The position numbers and the translations under genes are program-made. Shown here piece by piece: positions 5,409-8,552 of a stretch of DNA of 64,000 bases. Origin of the DNA: an uncultured Kordia sp. (GTDB lineage: Bacteria; Bacteroidota; Bacteroidia; Flavobacteriales; Flavobacteriaceae); the NCBI RefSeq assembly GCF_947489565.1, contig NZ_CANLEA010000007.1, positions 124,001 to 188,000 of the forward strand. Reading direction: 5' to 3'. The notes beneath the pieces were generated by a model, which was given only the letters and a program-made list of their open reading frames with translations, did not search any database and was not told the DNA's origin. How positions within the stretch are numbered: position 1 is the stretch's first letter; each line of letters starts with the position of its first letter.

Positions 5409-7145
5409 ATGTTTATGACATTAAGTATCATAAAGTATAGAATTCTAAGAATTACTATCGCAATCGCTATGCTCTTCTGTTTGTGGAATTGTAACAAAGA
5501 AAAAACTTCGCTAAAAATAGCAAATGAAGATAAAAAACAATTGTCTGTCATCGGAAATATGATCAATGAAGATATTGAAAGAGCAGATCTATTGATTGAA
5601 GAATTACTTCAAAAAGCAGAAACAAACAATGATCTATTGCTCAAAGCAAATGTGTATTTAAAACGCGGTGTATTACTCACAAAAAAAGGAGAATTTATCA
5701 ATGCGCGCGATACTTTAATTAGTGGAGTAAATATGATTAAAGACATTAAAGATTTGCCTTTAAAAAATTTGTTCTTATTGCGTATTGGAAATGTATATGC
5801 GCTTGATGACGAAAGTGACATTGCAATGAACTATTATACGAAAGTGTATGAAGATGCATCTACTAAAAACAATAAAAAGGAAATTTTTTTAGCACATGCG
5901 AACATGGCAAAAATCATGCGGAATGCAAAACGTTTTGATGAAGCACTCGCAATTTACAAACAGTCCTACAAACAAAGAAAATTACTAAACATTCAACCCA
6001 AAAATGTTGCTCGAGTTTTGATGGGAATTGGTGGAACTTTTCTAAAAATGCAAGAGCCAGATTCCGCATTATATTACAGTAGAAAGGGATTTAAACTTAG
6101 TGAATCTATCAATGATAAATCGGGAAAAAGCTTTTTTCAACATGACTTTGGAGTGGCTTACTATTTAAAGAAAGACTATTCGAGAGCATTGCAGCATTTA
6201 GATACCGCAAAGACATACATTACCTATTTAAAAAATGACGAACGTTTGTCGGAAACGCTATTCAATATTGGAAGATGTTACTACAAACTACAAGAGTATG
6301 ACACTGCTATTGATCAATTTAATCAAGTAAATACCATCATCAAACAGGCAGAAAAATTAAACAGCAAAGGTTTTGATCCTATCTACTTGGAAGACATGTA
6401 TGATTTATTGTCAAAATGTTATTTGGCAAAACAAGATGTAGTAAAGTCAACGATGTATGAGACAAAACGAGATCAAATAAGCAGAGTTAAAAACAAAGAA
6501 AATAATGAAATAGCGAGAGCGATGCACGAAAGTGATTTCAATATTAATAATGAATTTATTCAAACGGTATTGGCTGCCAATAAACAAACGTTGTCAAGAT
6601 ATCAAGGTATCTTAATTATTATTGGAATTATATGTTTGGCTTCGATCTACTTTTTATTCCATTATAAAAATGAAGCAAAAAAGAACAAGGAAATTTTTGA
6701 AAAACTAGTACAATCACAAGAAAAGAAAGAAAAAGAAAATCAAGAGCGATCCAAACCTAAAGAAATTGTCATTACGGACTCAAAAGTAGAAGCCGTTTTA
6801 AAACGTTTAGAAAAGCTAGAGGAACAAAATTATTTTTTAGAATCGTCTTGTTCTTTAGCGAATATGGCAAAAAAAACAAAAACAAATACAACCTATCTCA
6901 CACAAATACTCAAACAATACAAGGAAAAAACATTCTATCAATATCTGAATGAATTACGAATCAATTATACGATTGATCGCTTAAATACAGATCATCAATT
7001 TCGTAAATACGCTATCAAGCACATTGCATTAGAAGTTGGCTATAAAAGTCCAGAATCATTCACAAAGCACTTTAAAAAGGCTGCAGGAATAAATCCTTCA
7101 TACTATATCAAAGAATTAGAAAAACGATTAGAAAACAAGGTGTAA
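5409..7145 (+). CDS. TPR membrane regulator with C-terminal AraC-type HTH
   Basis: 578 residues. An N-terminal hydrophobic segment (ITIAIAMLFCLWNCNK) resembles a signal or lipobox. TPR-like helical repeats follow from about 35 to 370. A membrane helix (GILIIIGIICLASIYFLFHY) lies near 398-417, then a Lys/Glu coiled coil, then an AraC-type DNA-binding domain at about 455-570 (LANMAKKTKTNTTYLTQIL and HIALEVGYKSPESFTKHFKK are the two HTH units). Flavobacterial proteins of this layout sense in the periplasm and bind DNA in the cytoplasm. It starts 5 bp after rnz. It lies directly upstream of four small peptide genes that share one operator, which makes it their candidate activator; that link is inference. 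Confidence 0.88.
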   Translation: MFMTLSIIKYRILRITIAIAMLFCLWNCNKEKTSLKIANEDKKQLSVIGNMINEDIERADLLIEELLQKAETNNDLLLKANVYLKRGVLLTKKGEFINARDTLISGVNMIKDIKDLPLKNLFLLRIGNVYALDDESDIAMNYYTKVYEDASTKNNKKEIFLAHANMAKIMRNAKRFDEALAIYKQSYKQRKLLNIQPKNVARVLMGIGGTFLKMQEPDSALYYSRKGFKLSESINDKSGKSFFQHDFGVAYYLKKDYSRALQHLDTAKTYITYLKNDERLSETLFNIGRCYYKLQEYDTAIDQFNQVNTIIKQAEKLNSKGFDPIYLEDMYDLLSKCYLAKQDVVKSTMYETKRDQISRVKNKENNEIARAMHESDFNINNEFIQTVLAANKQTLSRYQGILIIIGIICLASIYFLFHYKNEAKKNKEIFEKLVQSQEKKEKENQERSKPKEIVITDSKVEAVLKRLEKLEEQNYFLESSCSLANMAKKTKTNTTYLTQILKQYKEKTFYQYLNELRINYTIDRLNTDHQFRKYAIKHIALEVGYKSPESFTKHFKKAAGINPSYYIKELEKRLENKV

Positions 7146-7172: not shown

Positions 7173-7194
7173 CCTTAAATTAGACAATTTAAGG
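7173..7194. promoter_or_regulatory. 22-bp inverted-repeat operator, copy 1
   Basis: CCTTAAATT-N4-AATTTAAGG is a perfect inverted repeat with 9-bp arms. It ends exactly 32 bp before the -7 box at 7227-7234. The same element occurs at the same spacing in front of the next three peptide genes. Confidence 0.75.
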
Positions 7195-7226
7195 TTTGAG
7201 AAAATTAATAAACAAATCTTATTCAA

Positions 7227-7234
7227 TAGCTTTA
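7227..7234 (+). promoter_or_regulatory. -7 box of peptide gene 1
   Basis: TAGCTTTA resembles the TAnnTTTG consensus. No -33 TTTG lies at the normal 19-20 bp spacing, which fits a promoter that depends on an activator bound at 7173-7194. The predicted leader is about 41 nt. Confidence 0.5.
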
Positions 7235-7280
7235 AACACACAAAAAAACCATTACTAACCTCATTTAAAATATTAGAATA

Positions 7281-7439
7281 ATGAAAAATCGACAGCCTAA
7301 ACGACTCCAATTCTCAAAAAAGTTAATCTCAAAAATCAACACACAACTTTCTGTAAAACTAAAAGGAGGAACGGATCCTATTTCAGATGGGATATTCTCT
7401 GCACACGGTTCACATTGTGGAAATCAAATGTGTCATTAA
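7281..7439 (+). CDS. GG-leader RiPP-like precursor peptide 1 (class I lanthipeptide type)
   Basis: A 52-residue peptide. The leader has the Bacteroidota pattern of basic residues then LQFSKKLISKI, and ends in KGG at residues 28-30, the expected peptidase cut. The core of 22 residues contains three Ser, one Thr and two Cys and ends in HCGNQMCH. The same CGNxxCH ending occurs in the next gene. The start is the ATG at 7281; no other start fits the leader pattern. No modifying enzyme or exporter lies nearby, so maturation must be encoded elsewhere if it occurs. The gene is absent from longer-ORF lists because of its size. Confidence 0.8.
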   Translation: MKNRQPKRLQFSKKLISKINTQLSVKLKGGTDPISDGIFSAHGSHCGNQMCH

Positions 7440-7444
7440 TACCG

Positions 7445-7466
7445 CCTTAAATCATCTAATTTACGG
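7445..7466. promoter_or_regulatory. 22-bp inverted-repeat operator, copy 2
   Basis: CCTTAAAT-N6-ATTTACGG, one mismatch from a perfect repeat. It is the reverse orientation of copy 3 (the spacer CATCTA here is TAGATG there). It ends 32 bp before the -7 box at 7499-7506. Confidence 0.7.
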
Positions 7467-7498
7467 AATCTTGCTTTTTAAAGTAATGATATCTTCAA

Positions 7499-7506
7499 TA
7501 GATTGC
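7499..7506 (+). promoter_or_regulatory. -7 box of peptide gene 2
   Basis: TAGATTGC, a partial match to TAnnTTTG, set 32 bp after the inverted repeat as in the three sister promoters. The predicted leader is about 76 nt and includes the conserved element at 7529-7571. Confidence 0.4.
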
Positions 7507-7528
7507 ACTTATCAATTTAACCTATAAG

Positions 7529-7571
7529 GATTGATAAGGTAAAGCCGAAAACCTTTTTAAAATGTAGGCAC
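7529..7571 (+). promoter_or_regulatory. Conserved leader element, copy 1 (possible H-type pseudoknot)
   Basis: The stretch shares GATTGA, AAGGTA, GCCGAAAACCT, a run of A and GTAGGCA with 8285-8325, and both copies end 17 nt before the ATG. AAGGT (7536-7540) can pair with ACCTT (7551-7555), and GCC in the loop can pair with GGC at 7567-7569, giving a small pseudoknot. It could equally be a protein-binding DNA site. Confidence 0.45.
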
Positions 7572-7587
7572 GTTTAAAATTATAACC

Positions 7588-7740
7588 ATGAAAAAATCAA
7601 GAACTTTAAAATTAGGATTGAACAAGAAGAAAGTATCAACATTAGATGCAACAGAAGTAAAAGGTGGACACTATTCATGTACGCCAACATGTACGCAAAC
7701 AGCATTGTATTCTCGTTGCGGAAACATGCAGTGTCACTAA
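7588..7740 (+). CDS. GG-leader RiPP-like precursor peptide 2 (class I lanthipeptide type)
   Basis: A 50-residue peptide. The leader LKLGLNKKKVSTLDA matches the LxLxKxxxSxL pattern of Bacteroidota class I lanthipeptide precursors and ends in KGG at residues 25-27. The 23-residue core HYSCTPTCTQT... holds four Cys, four Thr and two Ser, good material for thioether rings, and ends in RCGNMQCH. That ending nearly repeats the end of peptide 1. A strong terminator follows at 7761. The start is the ATG at 7588, set 17 nt after the conserved leader element. Confidence 0.82.
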   Translation: MKKSRTLKLGLNKKKVSTLDATEVKGGHYSCTPTCTQTALYSRCGNMQCH

Positions 7741-7760
7741 AAAACAAAGCAATATGTTTA

Positions 7761-7787
7761 AAAGGAGCGTTTATCGCTCCTTTTTTT
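7761..7787 (+). terminator. Rho-independent terminator after peptide gene 2
   Basis: AAAGGAGCG / CGCTCCTTT stem of 9 bp with a 5-nt loop, followed by a T run. Confidence 0.9.
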
Positions 7788-7870
7788 ATAGAATTAAATT
7801 ACATAAACTAAAATCTGTGCATTTAGGTTTAAAGTGTTGATATATAGTGATTTTTGGGCGTTTCCGGCAT

Positions 7871-7892
7871 GCTTAAATTAGATGATTTAAGC
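7871..7892. promoter_or_regulatory. 22-bp inverted-repeat operator, copy 3
   Basis: GCTTAAAT-N6-ATTTAAGC, perfect 8-bp arms. It ends 32 bp before the -7 box at 7925-7932. Confidence 0.75.
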
Positions 7893-7924
7893 TTCTTTTG
7901 ACTCAACTATCAGTTCATATTTAA

Positions 7925-7932
7925 TAGCTTTA
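7925..7932 (+). promoter_or_regulatory. -7 box of peptide gene 3
   Basis: TAGCTTTA, identical to the box before peptide gene 1. It lies in the shared block AATAGCTTTA, 32 bp after the inverted repeat. The predicted leader is about 19 nt. Confidence 0.5.
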
Positions 7933-7956
7933 GTACTTAATTAAAATTTGATTATT

Positions 7957-8166
7957 ATGAAGAAAACAACAACAAGAAAATTACAATTGTCCAAAATGGC
8001 AATCGCGCGAATTGATAAGCTTACACAGCAAACAATAGAAGGTGGGCAAGTGCATACGGACACGATTTCAGAATGTGATTCGCATAACGAACCAATTATT
8101 TATCCGCCAATATATGAAATGTCGCAAGTACCAGATGAAAATGGTATTTGTTATGCTATACAATAA
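7957..8166 (+). CDS. GG-leader RiPP-like precursor peptide 3
   Basis: 69 residues from the ATG at 7957; an upstream in-frame TTG at 7948 is less likely because the leader pattern begins with MKK. The leader RKLQLSKMAIARIDKL fits the Bacteroidota pattern and ends in EGG at residues 29-31. The core is acidic and long, with two Cys, Pro-rich (IIYPPIYEM) and unlike the cores of peptides 1, 2 and 4. A terminator follows at 8181. It may be a linear or differently modified peptide; the product is unknown. Confidence 0.75.
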   Translation: MKKTTTRKLQLSKMAIARIDKLTQQTIEGGQVHTDTISECDSHNEPIIYPPIYEMSQVPDENGICYAIQ

Positions 8167-8180
8167 AGAATAGCGAAAAG

Positions 8181-8208
8181 AAAAGACAGCTTTTAGTTGT
8201 CTTTTTTT
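8181..8208 (+). terminator. Rho-independent terminator after peptide gene 3
   Basis: AAAAGACA / TGTCTTTT stem with a short loop, followed by T residues. Confidence 0.85.
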
Positions 8209-8212
8209 ATGC

Positions 8213-8234
8213 CCTTAAATCATCCAATTTACGC
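8213..8234. promoter_or_regulatory. 22-bp inverted-repeat operator, copy 4
   Basis: CCTTAAAT-N6-ATTTACGC, closest to copy 2 and in the same orientation. It ends 32 bp before the -7 box at 8267-8274. Confidence 0.68.
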
Positions 8235-8266
8235 TAAAGACTCTTTTTTTCATGTCAAATCCTTCT

Positions 8267-8274
8267 TAATTTGG
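8267..8274 (+). promoter_or_regulatory. -7 box of peptide gene 4
   Basis: TAATTTGG, close to TAnnTTTG, at the common 32-bp spacing from the inverted repeat. The predicted leader is about 63 nt. Confidence 0.42.
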
Positions 8275-8284
8275 TGAAACAATC

Positions 8285-8325
8285 GATTGAAAAGGTATTG
8301 CCGAAAACCTATAAAAACGTAGGCA
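8285..8325 (+). promoter_or_regulatory. Conserved leader element, copy 2 (possible H-type pseudoknot)
   Basis: Second copy of the element at 7529-7571, again ending 17 nt before the ATG. AGGT (8293-8296) can pair with ACCT (8307-8310), and TGCC in the loop can pair with GGCA (8322-8325). Confidence 0.45.
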
Positions 8326-8342
8326 TTATAAAACATTATATT

Positions 8343-8552
8343 ATGAAAAAAGTTAAAAAAACGAAACTTAGATTGAACAAAAAGAATATTTCTTCATTCA
8401 AACTAAACCGCATTATTGGTGGAGGCGAAACCTATCCTTGTCCACATACAATTGGGCAAACATGTACATCGACATTGCCGCCAACAATATTGGGTTGTGA
8501 TGGTGCGCCGAGTGAGTTTGGAGGCGGTTGTACGTTTGAACAAGAAAAATAA
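8343..8552 (+). CDS. GG-leader RiPP-like precursor peptide 4 (class I lanthipeptide type)
   Basis: 69 residues from the ATG at 8343; the frame is open further upstream, but the operator, -7 box and conserved leader element occupy that stretch. The leader TKLRLNKKNISSFKL has the LxLxKxxxS pattern and ends in IGGG at about residues 25-28. The core has four Cys (PCPHTIGQTCTS, LGCDG, GGCTF) and several Thr/Ser. A terminator with a TTCG loop follows at 8574. Confidence 0.82.
   Translation: MKKVKKTKLRLNKKNISSFKLNRIIGGGETYPCPHTIGQTCTSTLPPTILGCDGAPSEFGGGCTFEQEK

Follow-up and report, generated by a model that had tools for sequence, protein, structure and literature searches.

Regulators of the AraC/XylS family, such as AraC, RhaS, and MelR, carry a C-terminal domain with two helix-turn-helix (HTH) motifs and activate promoters that have weak -35/-33 elements, from sites at a set distance upstream. 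Both features recur at the locus described here, which lies in a 64,000-nucleotide stretch of DNA from an uncultured Kordia sp. (assembly GCF_947489565.1, contig NZ_CANLEA010000007.1, positions 124,001 to 188,000, forward strand; "the window" below). It consists of a regulator gene, four small peptide genes 3' of it, and a 22-bp palindrome upstream of each peptide gene. The regulator ends in a two-HTH domain, in this case HTH_18, but departs from the AraC/XylS pattern in three ways. (i) At its N terminus are tetratricopeptide repeats (TPR) and a transmembrane helix, not a cytoplasmic sugar-binding domain. (ii) The putative site is symmetric, about 20 to 22 bp long and centered near -55.5, and two distances one helical turn apart occur. 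(iii) Dozens of paralogues per genome sit beside peptide genes.

A second point of comparison is the RRNPP group of receptors (Rap, NprR, PlcR, and Rgg). These too are built on a TPR superhelix, which in our regulator is a putative sensor, and there too the regulator gene adjoins genes for small secreted peptides. RRNPP receptors are soluble and cytoplasmic and, where they are transcription factors, have an N-terminal Xre-type HTH. The Kordia regulator differs in its C-terminal HTH_18 domain, its membrane anchor, and its Gram-negative host, and no Xre-type HTH is among the 23 Pfam families listed for it.

What about the peptides and their promoters? Precursors of ribosomally synthesized and post-translationally modified peptides (RiPPs) with GG leaders are described in Bacteroidetes (NF038153, TIGR04149, and graspetide precursors) and share with the window's peptides a lysine-rich leader, the GG, and a core rich in Cys, Thr, and Ser, though the latter fall below the curated cut-offs or are unmatched. 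The promoters resemble those of Bacteroidetes sigma-A in having a TAnnTT -7 box, held at one position in 31 of 32 locus promoters, but have only a degenerate, T-rich -33 element, with the palindrome at its fixed upstream distance in its place. Our search of open-access literature turned up neither this promoter geometry nor any account of TPR-AraC regulators that are paired with GG-leader peptides. The accessible portions of related papers mention TPR-protein genes in two Bacteroidales RiPP clusters, likened to pheromone-binding regulators (PMC10352776), list regulators linked to graspetide loci (PMC8939145), and describe many biosynthetic clusters in Kordia (PMC10734526, PMC7477175).

Four palindromes at one distance from the -7 box

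The elements on which the argument turns are the following, with the basis for each in parentheses.

5409..7145, + strand: regulator gene, 578 residues (Pfam, hydropathy, AlphaFold2 model, orthologue in 11/11 genus genomes)
7173..7194, + strand: palindrome 1, putative operator, CCTTAAATTAGACAATTTAAGG (sequence, script, genome search, genus alignment)
7227..7234, + strand: -7 box 1, TAGCTTTA (TA begins 32 bp past the 22-mer)
7445..7466, + strand: palindrome 2, putative operator in reverse orientation, CCTTAAATCATCTAATTTACGG (sequence, genus comparison)
7499..7506, + strand: -7 box 2, TAGATTGC (position script, genus comparison)
7871..7892, + strand: palindrome 3, putative operator, GCTTAAATTAGATGATTTAAGC (sequence, genus comparison)
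7925..7932, + strand: -7 box 3, TAGCTTTA (position script, genus comparison)
8213..8234, + strand: palindrome 4, putative operator in reverse orientation, CCTTAAATCATCCAATTTACGC (sequence, genus comparison)
8267..8274, + strand: -7 box 4, TAATTTGG (position script, genus comparison)

A first-pass annotation of this DNA had located the four repeats at these coordinates, which sequence and script verify, and had remarked on a constant 32-bp spacing. All four boxes indeed start 32 bp after the 22-mer, which is 33 bp after its 20-bp core, CTTAAATNNNNNNATTTA(A/C)G (written +33 below, and likewise for other distances counted from the 20-mer). Asymmetric central bases give the palindrome a readable orientation, which is one way in copies 1 and 3 and the opposite way in copies 2 and 4. 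When reverse-complemented, copies 2 and 4 agree with copy 3 at 19/20 and 18/20 positions, as the annotation would have it. Its range of 19 to 81 bp between box and ATG needs correction, the measured distances being 46, 81, 24, and 68 bp, hence 24 to 81. Its further statement that there is no good -33 box is only partly right: no TTTG consensus is seen, but a degenerate T-rich element does exist, with T at +11 (about -34) in 28 of 30 sites in the genus.

How rare is such a motif? The annotation had named many genome copies with random spacing to promoters as an outcome that would speak against it. That outcome is not what the searches gave. In the 6.42-Mb source genome, CKTAAATYNNNNRATTTAMG has four forward matches, all at this locus. 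A generic AT-rich repeat is rejected, since the exact motif is unique to the locus in this genome and is conserved together with its spacing. Across 11 Kordia genomes there are 30 matches, compared with 2 for a reversed control pattern; 24 of the 30 adjoin the orthologous regulator and 6 lie elsewhere. Outside the genus, in about 288 genomes of the family, the motif is at background by hand count (31 matches in 30 genomes, versus 27 in 24 for the reversed control), and the central six bases of these matches vary freely.

The 11 genomes are the source and ten relatives, among them Kordia algicida, K. zhangzhouensis, K. periserrulae, K. jejudonensis, and K. aestuariivivens. All 11 encode an orthologue of the regulator (45 to 82% identical), with the palindrome downstream of it in every case. 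These loci hold 30 sites with at most two mismatches, a count that omits one two-mismatch match at window 7808-7827 with an unrelated center and no box, and all 30 precede an open reading frame (ORF) with a lysine-rich GG leader. The TA of the box is at +33 in 29 of them and at +32 in one, from K. algicida. Hardly any variation is seen in the columns of the palindrome and the box, whereas most columns of the spacer have a low information content; within the box, the TA and TT positions are filled in 29/30 sites, but conservation does not extend to the final G. Starting the count at the peptide genes gives 37 with a GG leader in the 11 loci (one of 38 listed ORFs is omitted as an out-of-frame overlap of peptide 2), of which 32 have a palindrome with at most three mismatches plus a box, at +33 in 31 and at +32 in 1. 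For the first gene of the locus the palindrome is found in either orientation among species with the spacing unchanged, which is what a symmetric dimer would permit.

No orthologue was found at E <= 1e-85 in 138 sampled relatives outside the genus, a limit that omits distant relatives, with few candidates scored per genome. A genome labeled uncultured Lacinutrix (L184) carries the whole module: a regulator 57% identical and three variant palindromes, with TA at +33, ahead of peptides resembling those of the window. A fourth, loose palindrome match lies further downstream, without a GG-leader gene. The presence of the module in this genome suggests either horizontal transfer or a mislabeled Kordia relative.

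The same geometry around paralogous regulators

The source genome has 46 further matches to the regulator, and in 39 of these paralogues a GG-leader peptide gene starts within 200 bp past the stop codon. As a control, the window has 47 open frames of 150 codons or more, and of these the regulator alone has such a gene that close. In the closest paralogue group, palindromes of the form CTCAAATTA-NN-TAATTTGAG overlap the regulator stop codon, and a box, TATCTTTC, follows at +43/44 in six loci and at +34 in one. For two distant copies of this palindrome, the box ahead of a GG-leader gene is at +32 (L282) and +33 (L283).

Do the modules keep a common distance even though their palindromes differ? 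The best palindrome near each paralogue's stop codon was taken if it scored at least 7, which 24 of the 46 modules pass, and the distance was measured from its center to a TAnnTT[TCG] box. The threshold of 7.0 was fixed before the distance histogram was seen, and the 52.5-to-54.5 bin was fixed after. Nine of the 24 modules fall at 42 to 44 bp (shuffle mean, 0.99; maximum, 5 in 500 shuffles), the window's own sites being at 43 bp, and 7 of the 24 fall at 52.5 to 54.5 bp (shuffle mean, 0.86; maximum, 4). In a wider set, 48 of 75 loci were scanned. Of the 39 non-Kordia loci, L184 not included, 28 bear peptides, and among the 12 of these counted, with a score of at least 6, 7 are at 42 to 44 bp (shuffle mean, 0.40; maximum, 4). 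Palindromes as dissimilar as CCTTTAATTCGATAATTAAAGG, GTCGTATTTACATAAATACGAC, and CCGTATTTTGTCCAAAATACGG stand at equal distance from the box. The clades of the DNA-binding domain follow operator type, with labels set by hand and a clustering that near-copies inflate.

The two distance peaks are about one helical turn apart, which fits an activator touching polymerase from one face of the DNA. The Bacteroidetes sigma-A box TAnnTTTG spans -12 to -5, according to the accessible text of PMC9723704, and this would place the palindrome center near -55.5 or -66.

Away from the locus, five Kordia genomes contain six exact copies of the motif, every one upstream of a peptide ORF. Five of these ORFs are intact, the leader ending in GG in three and in GA in two. 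At the sixth site, L096 (2974, minus strand), a leader-like start and the Cys-rich core after it do not share one open frame, and the gene looks interrupted. Four of the six sites have a TAnnTT box, two at +33 and two at +34; the remaining two have TTCATTTG at +33. For a further test, 12 near-match sites with a motif-like center and 7 control palindromes were picked by eye among the matches listed, with the flanks unseen. Among these listed matches, 7 of the 12 have a GG-leader gene and a T[AT]nnTT box at +33/34, versus none of the 7 controls. Of the five failures, L268 and the second L276 site lack a GG-leader ORF despite a box at +33, and L269, L271, and L273 lack both. Sites L266, L100, L098, L101, L274, and L275 look like distant regulon members and encode two recurring families of bacteriocin-like peptides, MKKxILNxxGVxE...GG...CYxHxDCQIL and MLKNLKxLxGxxxIS...CxRTCGGSC.

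A candidate membrane-bound activator and its rivals

What kind of protein might act at these sites? The regulator consists, in order, of an N-terminal hydrophobic segment, a TPR superhelix (residues ~39 to 340), a transmembrane helix (~399 to 419), and an AraC-type domain (~458 to 577). Pfam matches are to TPR_12 (E value of 6.2e-18, 65.2 bits), HTH_18 (1.1e-14, 54.9 bits against a cut-off of 33.6), and HTH_AraC (32.8 bits against 26.6). It thus has the two HTH motifs that define the AraC/XylS domain (PF12833/PF00165), with model helices at 483 to 577. Hydropathy peaks at residues 5 to 25 and 399 to 419. An AlphaFold2 model built from 28 sequences (predicted local distance difference test [pLDDT] score, 85.3; predicted template modeling [pTM] score, 0.60) shows the TPR superhelix, a long helix across the membrane segment, and the DNA-binding domain. 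The domain order, from hydropathy and the model, suggests that the TPR domain probably faces the periplasm. Among fold matches of the model, eukaryotic LGN TPR proteins come out best, with the bacterial pheromone receptors lower (Rap-CSF 4gyo, E value of 3.9e-7; NprR 5dbk, 1.6e-6; RapF 4i9c, 3.7e-6). TPR matches being generic, with LGN the best of them, the fold is only a generic lead.

The motif, its restriction, its spacing, its links to the regulator and the peptide genes, and the geometry that modules share are all seen in the comparison of genomes. Given these, the palindromes are probably the operators of a membrane-bound one-component activator, the 5409-7145 product, that would jointly induce the four GG-leader genes. 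On receipt of a signal, the cytoplasmic AraC-type domains would bind the palindrome as a dimer, centered at about -55.5 if the TA is at -12. The bound dimer would lie on the helix face from which sigma-A RNA polymerase can be recruited to promoters with a weak -33, and the four genes would thereby be switched on together. We infer activation rather than repression because of the fixed, helix-phased spacing and the weak -33. The module would be one of dozens of TPR-AraC/palindrome/peptide paralogues in the genome. The palindrome would be particular to each regulator and the promoter geometry common to all, with the TA of the -7 box 43 bp, or a helical turn further, from the palindrome center.

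The first-pass annotation had likewise proposed activator-dependent, coordinated promoters under this regulator, and of the readings considered this one fits every sequence comparison made best. Its link to the regulator gains from the palindrome traveling with the orthologue in 11/11 Kordia genomes and L184, with spacing kept at 29/30 sites, and from paralogous regulators having other palindromes in the same place and geometry. As for shared control, the exact motif in this genome marks only these four genes, but the regulon appears wider in five other Kordia genomes, where distant peptide genes have it too.

Several observations weigh against an operator of this kind. The loose pattern, allowing three mismatches, is not enriched in the window (14 matches, with 87 of 100 shuffles giving at least 14), so the signal is carried by the exact matches and the geometry. 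Kordia sites are partly copies by descent. Five of the 37 locus peptides lack their own palindrome; these genes follow close behind the regulator (two) or another peptide gene (three), as second genes of operons do. Only two of the six distant sites have TAnnTT at +33, and two have TT for TA. Among the paralogues, 22 of 46 modules have no palindrome over the threshold, about 8 of the 24 that pass have no box at either distance, and the enrichment of palindromes scoring at least 8 is modest (after 17/46 paralogues, versus in 9/46 control stretches further downstream, where terminators may be present). The 53.5-bp class was noticed post hoc. Finally, AraC-family proteins often bind direct or asymmetric sites.

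Could the proximity of the TPR-AraC gene be mere synteny, with the palindrome serving another dimeric regulator encoded elsewhere, or could the neighboring protein be a repressor? Palindromes of similar size are common in many families of dimeric repressors, and a site upstream of the core promoter could serve either sign of control. We nevertheless regard this as unlikely: motif and orthologue co-occur in all 11 genomes and in L184, the motif is at background elsewhere in the family, and the palindromes of paralogous regulators differ in sequence but not in location. A repressor, moreover, could do without helix phasing and a constant spacing to the -7 box.

The identical spacing might instead be a functionless relic of recent duplication of a promoter-peptide unit, and it is true that the peptide genes are paralogous and that a 61-bp block is 70% identical between copies 1 and 3. 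This has very little chance of being right and is rejected, since palindrome and box columns are conserved in the genus while most spacer columns are near random, the geometry recurs with unrelated palindromes and in other genera, and the palindrome flips orientation at constant spacing. Least probable of all, and also rejected, is a terminator or attenuator of the upstream gene acting in RNA. In its favor, the palindromes are intergenic, and copies 2 to 4 come after the end of the preceding peptide gene. Against it, no T-run follows the AT-rich stems at a constant position, and the palindrome, being 5' of the predicted start, would not be part of the transcript under its control. Other hairpins, with T-runs and the look of terminators, can be seen by eye at ~7760-7790 and ~8185-8210, and a fixed 33-bp distance to the -7 box would be unexpected.

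If the membrane-bound activator is accepted, what signal might it receive? One tentative idea, which we think doubtful, is that dozens of peptide circuits operate side by side in Kordia, and to a smaller degree in Aquimarina and Dokdonia, each insulated from the others. In these circuits, membrane TPR-AraC receptors would sense secreted GG-leader peptides across the inner membrane and feed back on peptide promoters through private palindromes 43 or 54 bp from the -7 box. The peptide sensed would perhaps be the product of the receptor's own neighbor genes. The pairing of regulator and peptide, dozens of times over, makes autoinduction by a regulator's own secreted peptide appealing, but the idea is speculative. 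If true, it would add a peptide-signaling system in Bacteroidota and a candidate for the reported density signal of K. algicida, and peptide-sensing TPR domains would supply a mechanism for density-dependent behavior in that species. According to the accessible text of PMC3117869, cell-free filtrate triggers a density-dependent release of protease, and no acyl-homoserine lactone was detected; that of PMC10565126 indicates nutrient starvation over quorum sensing for regained algicidal activity, which makes any link to density tentative.

Even apart from signaling, the geometry offers a readable promoter code for a large and little-studied class of small-peptide genes in marine Flavobacteriaceae. 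A regulator's palindrome may predict scattered peptide genes under its control, as in the near-match test, and natural pairs of paralogous regulators and operators could show how AraC-type specificity evolves under a fixed promoter geometry.

The peptides, leader elements, and modification genes

The four genes 3' of the regulator encode lysine-rich GG-leader peptides of 52, 50, 69, and 69 amino acids, and two of them are preceded by a possible structured element in the 5' untranslated region (UTR).

7281..7439, + strand: peptide 1, 52 amino acids, leader ...KLKGG, core TDPISDGIFSAHGSHCGNQMCH (ORF; no NCBIfam or Pfam match)
7535..7570, + strand: 5' UTR element like DUF805b RNA, peptide 2 (RF02914, 20.3 bits; gathering cut-off, 35.6)
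7588..7740, + strand: peptide 2, 50 amino acids, leader ...EVKGG, core HYSCTPTCTQTALYSRCGNMQCH (weak NF038153 match, 11.7 bits; cut-off, 22)
7957..8166, + strand: peptide 3, 69 amino acids, leader ...TIEGG (NF038153, 18.6 bits; cut-off, 22)
8291..8325, + strand: 5' UTR element like DUF805b RNA, peptide 4 (RF02914, 18 bits; gathering cut-off, 35.6)
8343..8552, + strand: peptide 4, 69 amino acids, leader ...RIIGG (TIGR04149, 24.0 bits; cut-off, 25)

Are these lanthipeptides? No window peptide reaches the 22 bits of the class I lanthipeptide leader family NF038153, with peptides 1 and 4 unmatched, and none reaches the 25 bits of TIGR04149, a family of RiPPs modified by radical S-adenosylmethionine enzymes, to which only peptide 4 has a match. 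With leaders below the curated cut-offs, they are at most candidate lanthipeptides.

Neither DUF805b-like element in the window attains the RF02914 gathering cut-off of 35.6 bits. Seven more sub-threshold matches (19.0 to 25.2 bits) occur in the loci of five relatives, each by its coordinates within the 5' UTR of a similar peptide gene, and by eye the element resembles a small pseudoknot (AGGT..GCC..ACCT..GGC). Other Rfam matches (SraG, STnc290, etc.) score below gathering and were set aside. Elsewhere in the window, positions 1062-1610 on the minus strand encode a sigma factor of the extracytoplasmic function (ECF) type (sigma70-ECF, 60.2 bits), with no obvious tie to the peptide locus.

How would the peptides be modified and exported? 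The window's contig has no match to LANC or C39 peptidase, so these steps would need to act in trans; genome-wide there are 6 LANC-like and 4 C39 matches. At one place (G000:C2:165432-176428), a paralogous TPR-AraC gene (C2:170222-171568) lies between a LANC-like gene and a C39 peptidase gene, all in about 11 kb, and this stretch is possibly a complete lanthipeptide cluster.

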